35,935 bases of DNA from a virus, in IMG/VR virus record IMGVR_UViG_3300036886_000393, positions 1 through 35,935 of that record, one strand, 5' to 3'. Shown one piece after another: positions 7,378 to 18,004 of the stretch; position 1 is the first letter of the stretch, and the number at the start of each line of letters is the position of its first letter. Both the position numbers and the translations under genes were made by a program. Under the pieces are notes generated by a model that searched no databases, was not told the origin of the DNA, and was given only the letters and a program-made list of their open reading frames with translations.

Positions 7378-7974
7378 ATGGAAGAGCCATCAAAGACCAT
7401 TGTCTACAAAAATCGTGTGTACCACCTAAATGCTGGGTACTACATAAGAAATGATCGACTACATCAGCGTATATGGGAAGAGCATTATGGGGAGATACCA
7501 CAGGGATACGTAATTCATCATAAGAATGGAATCACTTGGGACAATCGAATTGAAAATTTGGAATGTTTAACAAAACATGATCATCACATGCTTCATTTTT
7601 GTTGTGAGAAACAACTTAAACATCTTCATTCAATTAGATCAAAAGCTGCGGCAGCTCATCGAACCCCAGAAGCTAGAAAAAAAGCATCTGAGCAGAAAAA
7701 AAAGATGTGGTTGACAGTGGGATTTAATGATTATTTATGCACAATTTGTGGACAGCCTTATAAAAGCAGAAATAAAGCTCGCCCAAAATATTGTTCTCAG
7801 AAATGCCGAACCAAAGCAGGACATAATAATTATAAACAAAAGTTGACATGTGGTATATGTGGTGAAGAATTCGTAACTGCCAAAGGTAAGCGTGCTGCCA
7901 CATTGTGTAAAATTTGTAGAGCAGTTGCAAGATGGGATAAAATTCATGAAGAAAGAAACAGGAGAAAAATGTGA
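7378..7974 (+). CDS. HNH homing endonuclease with zinc ribbons
   Basis: A 198-residue free-standing HNH endonuclease. The core is GYVIHHKNGITWDNRIENLE, then LTKHDHHMLH (H47-H48, N56, N60, H68-H70), typical of HNH_3-type phage homing endonucleases. The C-terminal half carries two Cys4 zinc ribbons: C121-C124 with C139-C143, and C158-C161 with C177-C180. It sits directly before the portal gene: its TGA overlaps the portal GTG start, and the portal gene holds an endonuclease-free group I intron 126 nt further on. That suggests it drives mobility of that intron or of this locus. Confidence 0.85.
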   Translation: MEEPSKTIVYKNRVYHLNAGYYIRNDRLHQRIWEEHYGEIPQGYVIHHKNGITWDNRIENLECLTKHDHHMLHFCCEKQLKHLHSIRSKAAAAHRTPEARKKASEQKKKMWLTVGFNDYLCTICGQPYKSRNKARPKYCSQKCRTKAGHNNYKQKLTCGICGEEFVTAKGKRAATLCKICRAVARWDKIHEERNRRKM

Positions 7975-10258
7975 CACTATTTCCACAATTGAGTGATACA
8001 TATTACGTAGACAATGACCATAATATCTTGAAGATGATGGACAATACTTACGCTAAGTACATCACGATCAACCAGAGCTTCTGGAGCGAGTCTGACATTT
8101 AAAATATAGGTGTCAATAAACCTTTTCTGATTGACTCGGACGTCTCTAGTAGATTACGAGGGGCAAGGGTAAAGCTAGCCTGAACGACTAAGCGAAGAGG
8201 GCGAGTAAAATCGTAAGCAATAGTCTGAGCATCATGGCGACATGATGAGAGAGTCTCGAAGAAGCTCTCCGCCCAGTAATGGGTCACAAAAGTAACAGAA
8301 TGGATAATAGATTCTGCGCCGGGGACCAAACCCTTTATAACGATATCTATGGCAATCTACCTGCTTTTCGTAAGCGGCAATTTAGTTTCAATAGGATTCG
8401 TAGGGTTGTTAACATGATCTGTGGTTACCAGAGACAGCATAGAAAATCTACAACTGTCACGCCTGTTGAGTCAGCAGCTCAAGCCACAGCAGATCAGTTC
8501 ACAAAGCTGCTATATCATGTCAATAGCCATGGCAATGTGTTGGAAACTATATCCGAAGCGTTCGAGGGTGCTGTCACTTCAGGGATGAACTTGTTGAGTA
8601 CCTGGATCGACTACACTCGCGATCCTGTCAATGGGGACATCAAGGTAGATAATGTCTCTTATAACGGCTATCTCATCGATCCTTACTTCAAGAAGAAGGA
8701 CATGTCCGACTGCAATTCCTTATGGACGCGCAAGTATCTCACAAGGAATCAAGTCATGGCGTTGCTTCCAGGGAGAGAGGATGAGATTAAGGGATTGTCT
8801 GGATGGGGCAACCGTGATGGCAAGTTCCAGTTCCAGCCAGAGGCTTACAATTATGGACAACAAGATCTCATTATCTATGACGAATTCTGGTACAACTCTT
8901 CCCGCACTCAGCAAGTCATTGTAGATACAGAATCAGGAGAGACTATTGAGTGGAGGGGAGCAGACGATGACCTCAACGATTTCTTGCATATGTATCCTCA
9001 GACAATCGTTGTAAAGAATGAAATTCCTTCTGTAAAGCTCGCTATCGTGGTCCAGGGAAAGGTCATGTATCATGGACCTAATCCTATGGGCATAGACTCC
9101 TACCCATTTGTACCAGTTTGGTGCTACTACCATCCCGAAATCCCCTACTTCCCATGGCGTATTCAAGGTGTGGTGCGAGGCATTCGTGATGCACAATATC
9201 TTTATAACCGCCGCATGATCACTTCTTTAGACATATTGGAGAGCCAGATTACCTCTGGATGGAAATATAAAGAAAACGCTCTTGTCAACCCCAAAGATGT
9301 GTACCTTCAAGGACAGGGGAGGGGATTGGCAATAAAGGCTGAAGCTCAGATGACAGATGCTGAGCAGATTATGGCTCCACAAATACCACCAAGCATGATT
9401 CAGTTGAGCGATATTCTGGGAAATGAGTTAGCTCAGATCTCTGGTGTGAACGAAGAACTTCTCGGGAGCAGTTCGGATGACAAAGCAGGGATCTTGTCTA
9501 TGCTTCGTCAAGGAGCTGGTCTTGTCACGTTACAAACCATCTTCGACAACCTAGATCAGTCCCAAAAGATGCTGGGCAAGCTTCATCTTGAGATGATACA
9601 GGCCAGTTGGACACCAGGAAAAGTAGCGAGGATTATTGGCGAAGAACCTAGCCCAGAGTTCTACAACAGGGCGTTTTCGAAGTATGATGCTGTAGTCGAA
9701 GAAGCACCATTGACATCCACTCAGAAGCAGATGGCATTGCAACAAGCCCTCTATCTTAAAGAGCTTGGCGTGCCCATCCCAACAGAATACATCCTCGAGA
9801 ACATGCAACTGCCCAATAAGGACGAGCTTATTCAGAAGATCATTCAGCAAGAGGGTGAGCAGCGAGAGCAACAGCAGCAGATGGCTCAGCTTCAAATGCA
9901 GCAGCTCCAGGTAGATAATGAGACGAAGCTTAGCTATGCGGAAGGACAGAAGGCTTTGGCAGCAGAACGGATCAATAAGACGAGGCTTGACGCAGCATTG
10001 TCAGCAGAGAGAATGCAAAGAGCCGATGAAGATAGGACAGGAGCATTCCTCAATCTTGTCAAGGCAGTGAAAGAAATCGAGAATATGGACGTAGAGCAGA
10101 TCGCCCAAGCTGTCCAGATTATGAAGACAACTCAAGAGATGCATGGGATGAATCAGGAGATGCAACAGCCTATGGCTCCACAGCCCATTTCTCAAGAACA
10201 GCCTCAGCCTCAACAAGCTCCTTCTCAAAATGTTCCTGAAACTGCTAGTGTCGGCTAA
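7971..10258 (+). CDS. Portal protein, P22-type, split by a group I intron
   Basis: Exons 7971-8099 and 8303-10258 join to a 694-residue protein (P22 portal is 725), the dodecameric ring through which DNA is packaged and ejected. Exon 1 encodes 43 residues ending FWSESDI; exon 2 continues DNRFCAGDQTLYNDIYGNLP, and the join restores the typical N-terminal pattern of these portals, including RRVVNMICGYQRQHRKS. The C-terminal 160 residues are Gln/Glu-rich and helical, like a portal barrel. GTG 7971 is the start, with AGGAG upstream, overlapping the HNH stop. Without splicing, translation stops at the intron's first codon (TAA). Confidence 0.85.
8100..8302 (+). ncRNA. Group I intron in the portal gene
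   Basis: A 203-nt self-splicing intron without an ORF. P1 is explicit: exon TGACATT (8093-8099) pairs with GGTGTCA (8109-8115), leaving the required U-G at the splice site. P7 is GACTA (8186-8190) with TAGTC (8221-8225). A P9-like hairpin with a GCGA tetraloop follows. It ends in AGTAACAGAATG, with G as the last base. The insertion lies between codons (Ile|Asp). Confidence 0.88.
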
Positions 10259-14427: not shown

Positions 14428-17400
14428 ATGTCTATTACAACTACGAGCACTTTGCCGGCGCCTGTCCAGCAGACGTTTTCGTTCAAGTTGCTATCAGTAC
14501 CCGTGCCGTACATGATCCACAAGATCCCGGCCGAACTGAAAGCAATGCCAAGAAATGGAGGTACAACCCTTCGTTTCAGGAGATATAATCCATTAGCAAC
14601 GGCCCCAGTGCCTCTTGGGAACAGTGGCGTCACTCCGGCTCCACAGAATCTGACGGCGCTGAATATTGATGCGAAAATGGATTTTTATGGAACGTATATC
14701 CTACTAAATGAACAAGTTACGCTCCAGAACCAAGACCCTGGCCTACAATATGGTATGGCGGCATAAGATTTGACTTGTTCTTAAATTACAGACCATGTAA
14801 CCTAGGTTCATAGCCAAGGAGGTTATATGGAAAATGAAGATATAGATATGTCATACATTGCAGGTGTAATGGATGGAGATGGAAGTTTCAGCTTATGTAA
14901 ACTTCAAGGATGTAGAAATACTCTCTATTTCCCACTCTTACAATGTTCGACATGGAGATCATTTATAGATTTTTTGAAAGAGAAGATTGGGGGCAACATT
15001 GTTACTGGTAAGGTCCATATTTGCAAAGACGGAACAGAAGGTCATGCTTTGAAGAGATGGAGACTACGTAGTCACGAAAATGTTCGTCCAGTTTTAGAAA
15101 AACTCATCCCCTTTCTTAGAATAAAAAAAGAAAGAGCACAGTTTTTATTAAATTATATTATCGAAAATCCTTTCAAAAGAGGTCATGTCCTTACTTCAGA
15201 AGATTTAGTGAGAAGGGAAAGAGCACATCTACAAATGGTCAATTTCAATGAATGGAAATCATGTGATAGTAATATATCGTTAAATTTAGCGAAGATAATG
15301 ACTGAGGATAAATTATTTTGGTCATATATTGCTGGATTAATGGATACAGATGGTTCTTTTTCCCTAAAACGACAGAAAATAAACAAGGGTACTGATGTAA
15401 AGAACCCTAGATATTTGCCTGTTATAGCTGTAAGCATGACAGATGTTCGATCTATAAATTATCTTCGAGAAAACTGTAATATCGGAAAATTATATATTCC
15501 TAAGAACAGTGATACAAGCGCCGGATATCATTATCAATTTGGTATATATACGAAATTAGAAAGTGTAGAGTTTTTAAAAAGAGTAATTCCTTTTTTGAAA
15601 TCCAAAAAAGAACAAGCAGAAGTCTTATTGGATTTCTGTATGAATTCAAAAAATACAAAATATTGCAAAATTGGAATTTCCGCTGATGAACTTGCTTTTC
15701 GTGAAGATTGTTACCAAAGAATGATACAACTTAATAAATACGGGGTCTTTAAACCTTCTTTAATTGGCTTGGAAACCCAAAACTGGGTTACAAGGCGCAA
15801 GCAGCGTGATGCGTGCAGCGTGATCGACTAAACAAGAAGGCACCAAAAGGTGATGTGATAGTCAGAACATGGCGTATAATTGAAGGTCATGAGGATGGGC
15901 CGAAGAGCCTGTCCCGCCTAGGAAACTAGGTCAAAAAAGTAACAGAATGGTATTAAACGAAGCAGCCCAGCGTTTGGGCGTGTCGCTGAGACAAACCGAA
16001 GACCAGCTCATGAGAGATATGCTGGCTTCAACAGCGACATTTGTGAACTGTGTAGGTGGATCAGATGGGGACAACCCAACTGAAATCACCCGCACTGACT
16101 GCGATTATGTGGTACGAACACTGCGTGGCAATAATGCCTACAGCTACATCACAGGCGTAGAAGGGGAGAATAAGTTCGGTAGAATGTGTGCCGAAGTAAA
16201 ATCTTGGGTAATTGACTTGGAACTCCTCGCTGCATAATGTAGAAGGACAACAAGGGGCAAGCGATGAAAAGAAAGGTTAAAGACCATATGTTGGTTTTTG
16301 ATGGAACTAATTTTTATATGAAAGAAATTGAATATGAAGAAACAGCGTATATCCTAAACGATCAGTGGATAATTAATTTAAGAAATAATCAATCGCAGCC
16401 TGAACGACTAAATCCTGAGACGCCTGAAAAAGGTGAAGTGATAGTCTGAGCAGCATGGAAACATGTTGAGGATGGGCCGAAGAGCCTGTCCCGCCACTAG
16501 TTTGTGGTCAAAAAAGTAACAGAATTGACAGCTCCCGTACGTGATGCCTATTTTGGGCTTGGTCATACCAACCTGATTGGGCAATTGGATAACGTTTCTG
16601 GCTTTATCCAGAAGTGGAACTATAAATTGTGTAGTTCTAAAACCGTCGATAATTACCAAGAAAACCTAAAGGCTGCATAAGCCCAAGGCAACTTGAGGGA
16701 AAATTGTTATAGTGAGTTTAAATGTTTAATTTGATTGATGATTTCTCTAATTTGATTAACTTGATCGAAAGAATAACTTTGATCTCTAATCTTTGTTTTT
16801 TTGATATTCAAAAATTCAATGAGAAGTTTGCATTGTTCTTTTTTAATGACCAAGTGAGGCAGAAGAGATTCGCAAGCAAATTCAGAGTCTTTTTGACAGC
16901 AGATCCACTTCCAAACTGGAAAATTACATCCAGTAGATATCGTTATCGACCCCTTTATCCTTCGTGCTGTGGTTATGATTGCACTGGGGAATATGTTAAA
17001 TATACCAATCCGGGAATAAAATATTCCTTTGTATTCATAAACGCAGAGATTTCCGTCCCCATCCAAAAAACCAGCAAGCCATTTAAAAAAATCTCTATCT
17101 GGAATTATGTCGGGCGAAATCCAAATTCGGGAATTGGACGTTGTTGGGGGTTCTTTAAGATTAGAAATTGCACGAATAAATTCATACCTATTCTGTCTTT
17201 TTTCTTTTCTAGTTTGTTCAAGATAACACCTAAGTTTGAGAAGTTGTTCTCCTTTTACAATGCAATGTTTGGAAATAGCTTCAACAAAGTCGATACAGGG
17301 TCCAGGGTTGGTTGCAAGCATCCACGACCATGTTTTTTTTCTTTTATCTCGTTGTTGGGTATATATTTTTCCTCCAAATTTTTCTTGAAAGAGATTGGGA

Positions 17401-18004
17401 ATTTCTTCATTGGCCATTTGTGTTCCTATGACAAAATGTCCATCTTTTACAAGGGAAACATAGCCCTCTGCGTCAAAAAGTCCAGCAAAATATTCCATAA
17501 CTCTCCATGGTTTGGTAAGTTACACTTTACCAAGACTCACAATTGCCCGCAACGACTAAATTCGATGGAACGAGGATCAATTCTTCGTTATGCCATAGTC
17601 TGAACAATGGACGAAAGCCATTGAGGATGGGCCGAAGAGCCTGTCCCGCCACAATTAAGTGGTCAGTAGGGGTAGAACCCGAAAGTAACAGAATGCCAAA
17701 TCAGCAATCCACACTCGATGCAGAGTGGGGAACGGTCTCCAACTTGAGGTTCTTACTGTCCTCAATTGGTTCTGTAACCCCCAATGCTTCGATGCTTGGT
17801 GCTGATGTATATAACATCTTCTGTTGCGGGCGCGAATCGTTTGCAGCAGTAGAGCAAGATGGATATTCTGCACAGTTTATCTATCGACCACCCATTTATG
17901 ATGGGCCGTTAGCCCTTAACGCGAGTGTAGGGTATAAATTCGCTGAGGTACCGCGTATCCTCAACGACCAGTGGCTTCTAAATCTTCGCTGCACCTTGGC
18001 ATAA
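14428..18004 (+). CDS. Major capsid protein (N4 gp56-like), four exons
   Basis: Exons 14428-14739, 15950-16180, 16528-16623 and 17696-18004 join in frame to 315 residues. The joined protein follows the N4-gp56 capsid pattern: GGTTLRFRRYNPLATAPVPL, then VTLQNQDP|VLNEAAQRLG across junction 1, RTLRGNNAYSYIT, KFG|TAPVRDAYFGLGHTN across junction 2, GFIQKWNY|PNQQSTL across junction 3, and the C-terminal FAEVPRILNDQWLLNLR. No single open frame covers the gene; each exon alone is a fragment. All three introns fall between codons. The position after the scaffold fits. Exon junctions come from protein continuity, intron core motifs and, for introns 3 and 4, explicit P1 pairings. Confidence 0.85.
14740..15949 (+). 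ncRNA. Group I intron 1 of the capsid gene, with LAGLIDADG ORF
   Basis: A 1210-nt intron between Pro and Val codons. P7 is GACTA (15826-15830) with TAGTC (15859-15863). The 28-nt block starting GAGGATGGGCCGAAGAGC is at 15891-15918, and the intron ends in AGTAACAGAATG. Unlike its relatives, I find no internal guide that pairs well with the exon end (AAGACCCT), so the 5' site rests on protein continuity. The exon frame runs 18 nt into the intron and then stops at GCG-GCA-TAA. Confidence 0.75.
14827..15831 (+). CDS. LAGLIDADG homing endonuclease, intron-encoded
   Basis: A 334-residue protein with two LAGLIDADG motifs, YIAGVMDGDGSF (10-21) and YIAGLMDTDGSF (167-178); D18 and D175 are the expected catalytic residues, so it acts as a monomer that cuts intron-free capsid genes. 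Conserved repeats of the fold are also visible (IPFLRIKKERAQFLL and IPFLKSKKEQAEVLL). It has its own AAGGAGG site. Its stop codon TAA is made from the intron's own P7 strand (GACTAA), so the ORF overlaps the ribozyme core. Confidence 0.92.
   Translation: MENEDIDMSYIAGVMDGDGSFSLCKLQGCRNTLYFPLLQCSTWRSFIDFLKEKIGGNIVTGKVHICKDGTEGHALKRWRLRSHENVRPVLEKLIPFLRIKKERAQFLLNYIIENPFKRGHVLTSEDLVRRERAHLQMVNFNEWKSCDSNISLNLAKIMTEDKLFWSYIAGLMDTDGSFSLKRQKINKGTDVKNPRYLPVIAVSMTDVRSINYLRENCNIGKLYIPKNSDTSAGYHYQFGIYTKLESVEFLKRVIPFLKSKKEQAEVLLDFCMNSKNTKYCKIGISADELAFREDCYQRMIQLNKYGVFKPSLIGLETQNWVTRRKQRDACSVID
16181..16527 (+). ncRNA. Group I intron 2 of the capsid gene
   Basis: A 347-nt intron between Gly and Thr codons. 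P1: exon TTCGGT (16175-16180) with GCCGAA (16190-16195), U-G at the splice site. P7: GACTA (16406-16410) with TAGTC (16442-16446). A P9-like hairpin CAGCATG-GAAA-CATGTTG follows, then the shared 28-nt block (16468-16495). It ends AGTAACAGAATTG, one T longer than the others. It holds a 61-codon ORF. The exon frame runs 48 nt in and stops at GCT-GCA-TAA. Confidence 0.85.
16264..16449 (+). CDS. Short intron ORF resembling the capsid C-terminus
   Basis: A 61-residue ORF inserted between core elements of intron 2. It has a plausible ribosome binding site (AAGGGGCAAG), although that sequence is probably also part of the intron core. Residues about 28-41 (TAYILNDQWIINLR) match the end of the capsid protein (VPRILNDQWLLNLR). 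The DNA in that stretch is clearly diverged (about 24 of 34 bases the same by my count), so this is not a recent copy. The last 15 codons run into the intron core. It may be a remnant of another capsid gene carried by the intron. Confidence 0.45.
   Translation: MKRKVKDHMLVFDGTNFYMKEIEYEETAYILNDQWIINLRNNQSQPERLNPETPEKGEVIV
16624..17695 (+). ncRNA. Group I intron 3 of the capsid gene, with antisense ORF
   Basis: A 1072-nt intron between Tyr and Pro codons. P1: exon GAACTAT (16617-16623) with GTAGTTC (16631-16637), seven pairs including the U-G at the splice site. P7: GACTA (17554-17558) with TAGTC (17596-17600). Then the hairpin CAATGG/CCATTG, the shared 28-nt block (17623-17650), and the end AGTAACAGAATG. 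The exon frame runs 48 nt in and stops at GCT-GCA-TAA. Confidence 0.88.
16707..17498 (-). CDS. LAGLIDADG homing endonuclease on the antisense strand of the intron
   Basis: A 263-residue protein with two LAGLIDADG motifs, YFAGLFDAEGYV (3-14) and WLAGFLDGDGNL (140-151); E11 and D148 are the expected catalytic residues. The reading frame is intact and ATG 17498 has GGAGAG upstream. It lies wholly inside intron 3 but is transcribed against the capsid gene. Its transcription must start from a leftward promoter inside or downstream of the intron, which I cannot identify. It differs strongly from the sense endonuclease in intron 1, so it was acquired separately. Confidence 0.9.
   Translation of the reverse strand: MEYFAGLFDAEGYVSLVKDGHFVIGTQMANEEIPNLFQEKFGGKIYTQQRDKRKKTWSWMLATNPGPCIDFVEAISKHCIVKGEQLLKLRCYLEQTRKEKRQNRYEFIRAISNLKEPPTTSNSRIWISPDIIPDRDFFKWLAGFLDGDGNLCVYEYKGIFYSRIGIFNIFPSAIITTARRIKGSITISTGCNFPVWKWICCQKDSEFACESLLPHLVIKKEQCKLLIEFLNIKKTKIRDQSYSFDQVNQIREIINQIKHLNSL

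Follow-up and report, generated by a model that had tools for sequence, protein, structure and literature searches.

Candidate Degron-Encoding Group I Introns in a Phage Capsid Gene

The window described here is an entire viral sequence of 35,935 nt (IMG/VR record IMGVR_UViG_3300036886_000393), in which a capsid gene is split into four exons on the plus strand (14428..14739, 15950..16180, 16528..16623, and 17696..18004), the first of which ends in ..CAAGACCCT. When spliced, these exons form an intact ORF of 315 aa matching the major head protein of PHROG 1357 (E=2.9e-29), and precise removal of the introns restores the gene, as judged by an intronless relative that matches over all 315 residues at 93%. 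The splice sites are predicted ones, set by the protein (i.e., the joined ORF and the intronless relative) together with P1 pairing. Capsid intron 1 (14740..15949, plus strand) is of group I type, with P1, P10, and a terminal G; its P1 is formed by exon GACCCT and GGGGTC (15742-15747), and its P10 by ATAC (15738-15741) and GTAT at 15950. This guide (15738-15747) is located 3' of the endonuclease, a LAGLIDADG homing enzyme encoded on the plus strand (ORF 14827..15831; Pfam LAGLIDADG_1, E=2.8e-7), and the endonuclease therefore resides in the P1 loop, as does the read-through tail described below.

Capsid intron 2 (16181..16527, plus strand) has a terminal G and a P1 between TTCGGT (16175-16180) and GCCGAA (16190-16195). 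It matches the Rfam Intron_gpI model at 23.8 bits (E=0.0033), which is below the 50-bit gathering cut-off, and a P7-like GACTA..TAGTC was seen by eye on inspection of its core. The intron also contains a conserved hairpin holding GCTGCATAA (16214..16256, plus strand), built from CUUG/CAAG and CUCC/GGAC pairings and an inner stem, CUGCA/UGUAG. Capsid intron 3 (16624..17695, plus strand), another group I intron, has a terminal G and a P1 between AACTAT (16618-16623) and GTAGTT (16631-16636). A LAGLIDADG-like ORF lies within it on the minus strand, antisense to the capsid gene (16707..17498; Pfam E=0.0087, below cut-off), and a plus-strand frame of 293 aa is open across the same stretch. A fourth intron interrupts the portal gene (8100..8302, plus strand), with GACATT (8094-8099) and GGTGTC (8109-8114) as its P1. 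The second portal exon occupies 8303..10258 on the plus strand, and the ORF matching Pfam P22_portal (8279-10258, E=4.9e-77) starts within the intron. All four introns possess the exon-terminal U paired with G in P1 and the intron-terminal G of group I introns. At gathering thresholds Rfam called no intron within the window, and a search of INPHARED with introns 2 and 3 returned no match, while a relative's intron gave weak matches only. Directly 5' of the split portal gene is a free-standing HNH endonuclease (7378-7974); the portal intron contains no endonuclease, and the two may constitute a trans-homing pair.

It had originally been predicted that translation of the unspliced capsid message would carry each exon into its intron and end in GMAA, ELLAA, or NLKAA, and all of these tails and their coordinates proved correct, given the predicted splice sites. 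The plus-strand tails are GLQYGMAA for intron 1 (14740..14766, stop at 14764-14766), located 5' of the endonuclease ORF; RMCAEVKSWVIDLELLAA for intron 2 (16181..16237, stop at 16235-16237); and KLCSSKTVDNYQENLKAA for intron 3 (16624..16680, stop at 16678-16680). The counterpart of the last in relative L330 reads ..FDNFQENLRAA and stops at TAG. The Ala codons begin 18, 48, and 48 nt into introns 1, 2, and 3, respectively, and the portal intron, also as foreseen, adds no tail, its first codon being an in-frame TAA. The C-terminal Ala-Ala of an ssrA-type degron is present in three of three capsid tails, which extend 8 and 18 residues past the exon and, in length alone, exceed the benchmark of at least 5 residues set with GFP. 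Introns 2 and 3 share both their phase and their distance to the Ala codons, so those two alone could represent one inherited structure; relatives show otherwise. The word GCNGCATAA is not rare in the window (three or more copies in 7/100 shuffles), and its count there is uninformative by itself. Given that Ala-Ala is the ending of 59 of 2308 long ORFs, three of three capsid introns would reach it by chance with a probability of about 2e-5. What goes beyond chance in the window is the placement of GCNGCATAA in the exon frame, which a survey of relatives confirms.

For this survey, IMG/VR contigs were fetched by intron 3'-end patterns and the core motif AT[TA]GACTTGGA, none of the patterns covering the Ala codons. 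The 5' splice site belonging to each motif was predicted from its P1 pairing, and blastp of the upstream exon against the proteins of other loci gave the exon frame. The resulting set comprised 252 group I introns with a readable exon frame at about 116 insertion sites. The sequences are related, such that counts are not equivalent to independent events, although site-wise and stratified tests still hold. In this phage group, no fewer than 61 distinct sites of the capsid gene are occupied by related group I introns, and as many as five motif-bearing introns were seen on one contig (L495).

The core motif is in the exon frame in 187/252 introns and out of frame in the remaining 65, in nearly all of which translation ends before the hairpin. 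Ala-Ala-stop was found in the first hairpin of 66/187 in-frame introns versus 0/65 out-of-frame introns (P=1e-10), and the same count made by exon insertion site gave 26/75 versus 0/52 (P=1.6e-7). None of the in-frame introns that stop 5' of the motif has an Ala-Ala-stop hairpin. Likewise, the other two frames of the same RNAs yielded the ending in 2/111 and 1/113 cases (3/224) versus 78/165 in the motif frame, and permutation within subfamilies gave a mean of 52.7 and a maximum of 65 in 20000 rounds relative to the 75 observed. Related introns are therefore strongly enriched for Ala-Ala-stop, as the original prediction required, and its dependence on the exon frame means that it is not the frame-independent structural part of the intron that had been named as the finding to set against that prediction.

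One explanation to be weighed is nevertheless that GCNGC-URR serves the structure of the intron, as a hairpin stem whose loop contains UAA, and that Ala-Ala-stop simply follows from inheritance and insertion at phase 0. In its favor, a conserved hairpin does form in this region, some of its loops are GUAA tetraloops, and phase 0 together with a 30-nt spacing is common to 137/252 introns. This account is already contradicted by the lack of GCNGC-URR in all 65 out-of-frame introns, and it is at odds with the free variation of stop codon type and wobble bases: the 52 distinct coding arms use every one of the four GCN codons at both Ala positions, and their stops are TAA in 31, TAG in 15, and TGA in 6. 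The Ala-Ala arms pair in the hairpin, with paired bases differing at wobble positions only, and insertions in the arms are whole codons that preserve the ending (e.g., ELPLAA, EFLIAA, ELLAMAA, and DLLKAA). An apparent compensation between exon phase and spacing was dropped as evidence because misplacement of a splice site by one base mimics it; the frame is unaffected by such an error. Finally, the same ending appears elsewhere in the intron, at the P1 loop and the P7 junction, and in introns that lack this hairpin, making a purely structural origin very improbable. These sequence comparisons lend good support to selection for an Ala-Ala end on capsid fragments made by read-through, as opposed to selection on an RNA motif.

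The P7 junction is the second site at which the ending is found. When the hairpin contains no stop, translation reaches a conserved GCAGCSUGA that can be read as Ala-Ala-stop; its TGA is in frame in 22/31 introns with an open hairpin (20 of them ending in Ala-Ala) versus 24/77 of those that stop earlier, and tails such as AEQYALAA, AEQFALAA, and SVIAA result. Among interrupted capsid ORFs picked without regard to motif family, 102/177 end in Ala-Ala beyond residue 120 and 35/92 at residues 60-120; the control rates are the 59/2308 for ORFs given above and 7/220 for complete capsids. The ending also occurs in 44/102 interrupted capsid ORFs whose introns lack any family motif, including introns with an endonuclease in the P1 loop like intron 1 of the window (QLQLAA, RSIAA, QPKAA, and IMEAA). 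Different intron architectures thus reach Ala-Ala-stop at different places, whether the hairpin, the P1 loop, or the P7 junction, and the tail has evolved repeatedly. Two fresh sets are in agreement. In one, 13/21 translated tails end in Ala-Ala, and 1/16 untranslated introns has an Ala-Ala hairpin (L604, whose exon frame is doubtful). The other, drawn from MAG loci, gave the tails LLAA, LLAA, LLEAA, LLTAA, LLEAA, and ARFYALAA.

The tag is concentrated in the capsid gene past residue ~60, and introns at gene starts or in other genes mostly stop at once. Beyond residue 120, capsid introns comprise 81 with Ala-Ala, 50 with other endings, and 7 with an early stop, as opposed to 2, 6, and 17, respectively, in the first 60 residues; among non-capsid introns with at least 20 aa of upstream exon read, 3/43 have Ala-Ala. 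The window agrees with this distribution, its three capsid introns being tagged and its portal intron untagged. Roughly 40% of translated capsid introns have other endings (VVAFS*, EVVFN*, and YC*, for example), so the tag is common and not universal.

Could the stop alone be what matters, keeping ribosomes off the intron core and thereby letting it fold, with Ala-Ala incidental or an aid to termination? Early in-frame stops are known in group I introns, where they are attributed to protection of core folding (PMC3073962, PMC3984707), and most non-capsid introns in the survey do stop at once. However, such a role predicts neither Ala-Ala nor 8-30 extra codons ahead of the stop, nor does it account for the concentration of the tag in the capsid gene beyond residue ~60, and it is accordingly judged improbable. 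A further alternative, in which the tails are not waste tags and instead give purposely made short forms of the capsid protein a working C-terminus, draws on the length of some tails and the conservation of their type (IDLELLAA). Yet the 61 capsid insertion sites are spread along the whole gene and only the last residues of the tails are shared, rendering deliberate isoforms scarcely credible.

The best explanation, and in our estimation a likely one, is that the introns supply an ssrA-like degron in cis, to be recognized by ClpXP or a protease of similar kind. A ribosome translating the unspliced capsid pre-mRNA would produce a truncated fragment with an intron-encoded Ala-Ala tail, the cis-encoded equivalent of an ssrA tag, and the host's ClpXP or another AAA+ protease would then destroy the tagged fragment. 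The likely benefit would be clearance of long capsid fragments able to poison assembly, while introns located within the first ~60 residues, or outside the capsid gene, would mostly impose a plain translation stop. ClpXP recognizes the ssrA tag chiefly through its carboxyl-terminal Ala-Ala, and a five-residue YALAA tail suffices as a degron on GFP (PMC7652416). Across the introns, the tails are 8-30 residues, which in length is enough for engagement by a protease, and the tmRNA tags of three MAGs holding such loci end in ELMAA, EFLQAA, and (as called) LVAI, the last of which counts against the degron reading. Destruction of the fragments by ClpXP or a similar protease is, by inference, the best reading, and it would prevent dominant-negative assembly. 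As a weak hint of the hosts, relatives L495, L496, and L497 are on contigs binned with Parachlamydia, Chlamydiia, and Acidobacteria MAGs.

Like ssrA tags and other ClpXP degrons, the tails have a C-terminal Ala-Ala, usually as Leu-Ala-Ala, and some end in FYALAA, QYALAA, or YRLAA. Unlike the ssrA tag, they are encoded in cis within the intron and require neither ribosome stalling nor tmRNA. A tmRNA tag added in trans was rejected as their source, the tail being present in the intron DNA. The introns likewise resemble known phage group I introns (T4 td, nrdB, and sunY, and the capsid introns of Lactococcus phage Tuc2009 and mycobacteriophage LittleE) in their exon-terminal U:G in P1, intron-terminal G, homing endonucleases, and in-frame stop 3' of the 5' splice site. 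In those introns, however, the stop is described as protecting intron folding, and the literature found reports no coded C-terminal tag; literature searches found no degron-encoding intron. If the degron reading is true, a mobile intron pays its way by marking the damage it causes, with proteins made before splicing labeled for destruction from within the gene, and splicing, translation, and proteolysis would be coupled in bacteria in a new way. It would also explain why in-frame intron stops are not always immediate, and would open to experiment the question of why the phage gene with the highest expression, and one critical to assembly, tolerates group I introns.

The capsid genes of relatives also contain short insertions, 28-79 nt in 49 curated elements and too small for a ribozyme, that have, of the features of a group I intron, only P1, the P10 guide, and the final G, each following an exon U. 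Their guide sequence pairs with the exon (TACGGT/GCCGTA, with variants TATGGT/GCCATA and TTTGGT/GCCAAA), and the third base of the 3' exon is complementary to the facing guide base in 48/49 (permutation mean 15, maximum 28). These mini-introns are located at capsid residues ~80-92 (L009, L425, L448, L461, L029, L102, L496, and others), 26-91 nt upstream of a full intron, and a full-intron motif occurs within 140 nt downstream in 45/49 as opposed to 26/88 uninterrupted genes. A scan not conditioned on a downstream intron gave 30/30 for both P10 complementarity and a downstream full intron, although 13 of its contigs were already in the collection. An extra helix between the 3' part of the mini-intron and the micro-exon is seen at a higher frequency than with permuted exons. 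Translational bypassing was considered and rejected: the last triplet is never GGN in the 49 elements (the take-off codon being GGU), and the 3' exon pairs with the guide, so bypassing is unlikely given the lack of a landing codon.

As a hypothesis, the mini-introns may be cut out by the neighboring full intron's catalytic core. The combined picture is of a quality-controlled, multi-intron capsid gene, in which full introns would supply degrons to proteins made from RNA that still contains them and mini-introns would be removed by a core 26-91 nt downstream, as a natural counterpart of spliceozymes; this is judged somewhat more probable than not. Spliceozymes are group I ribozymes engineered to cut introns out in trans (PMC4094466). 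The two have in common that the intron is recognized through P1 and a second helix and has no core of its own; spliceozymes are man-made, whereas mini-introns are natural sequences with putative splicing. Ala-Ala tails are found in 16/49 mini-introns. In L497, L514, L070, L102, and L364, Ala-Ala-stop is read out of the 3' exon in another frame, for example TGC CGC GTA A as GCC GCG TAA and GGC TGC ATA A as GCT GCA TAA, so that in these mini-introns particular codon choices in the exon would be required.
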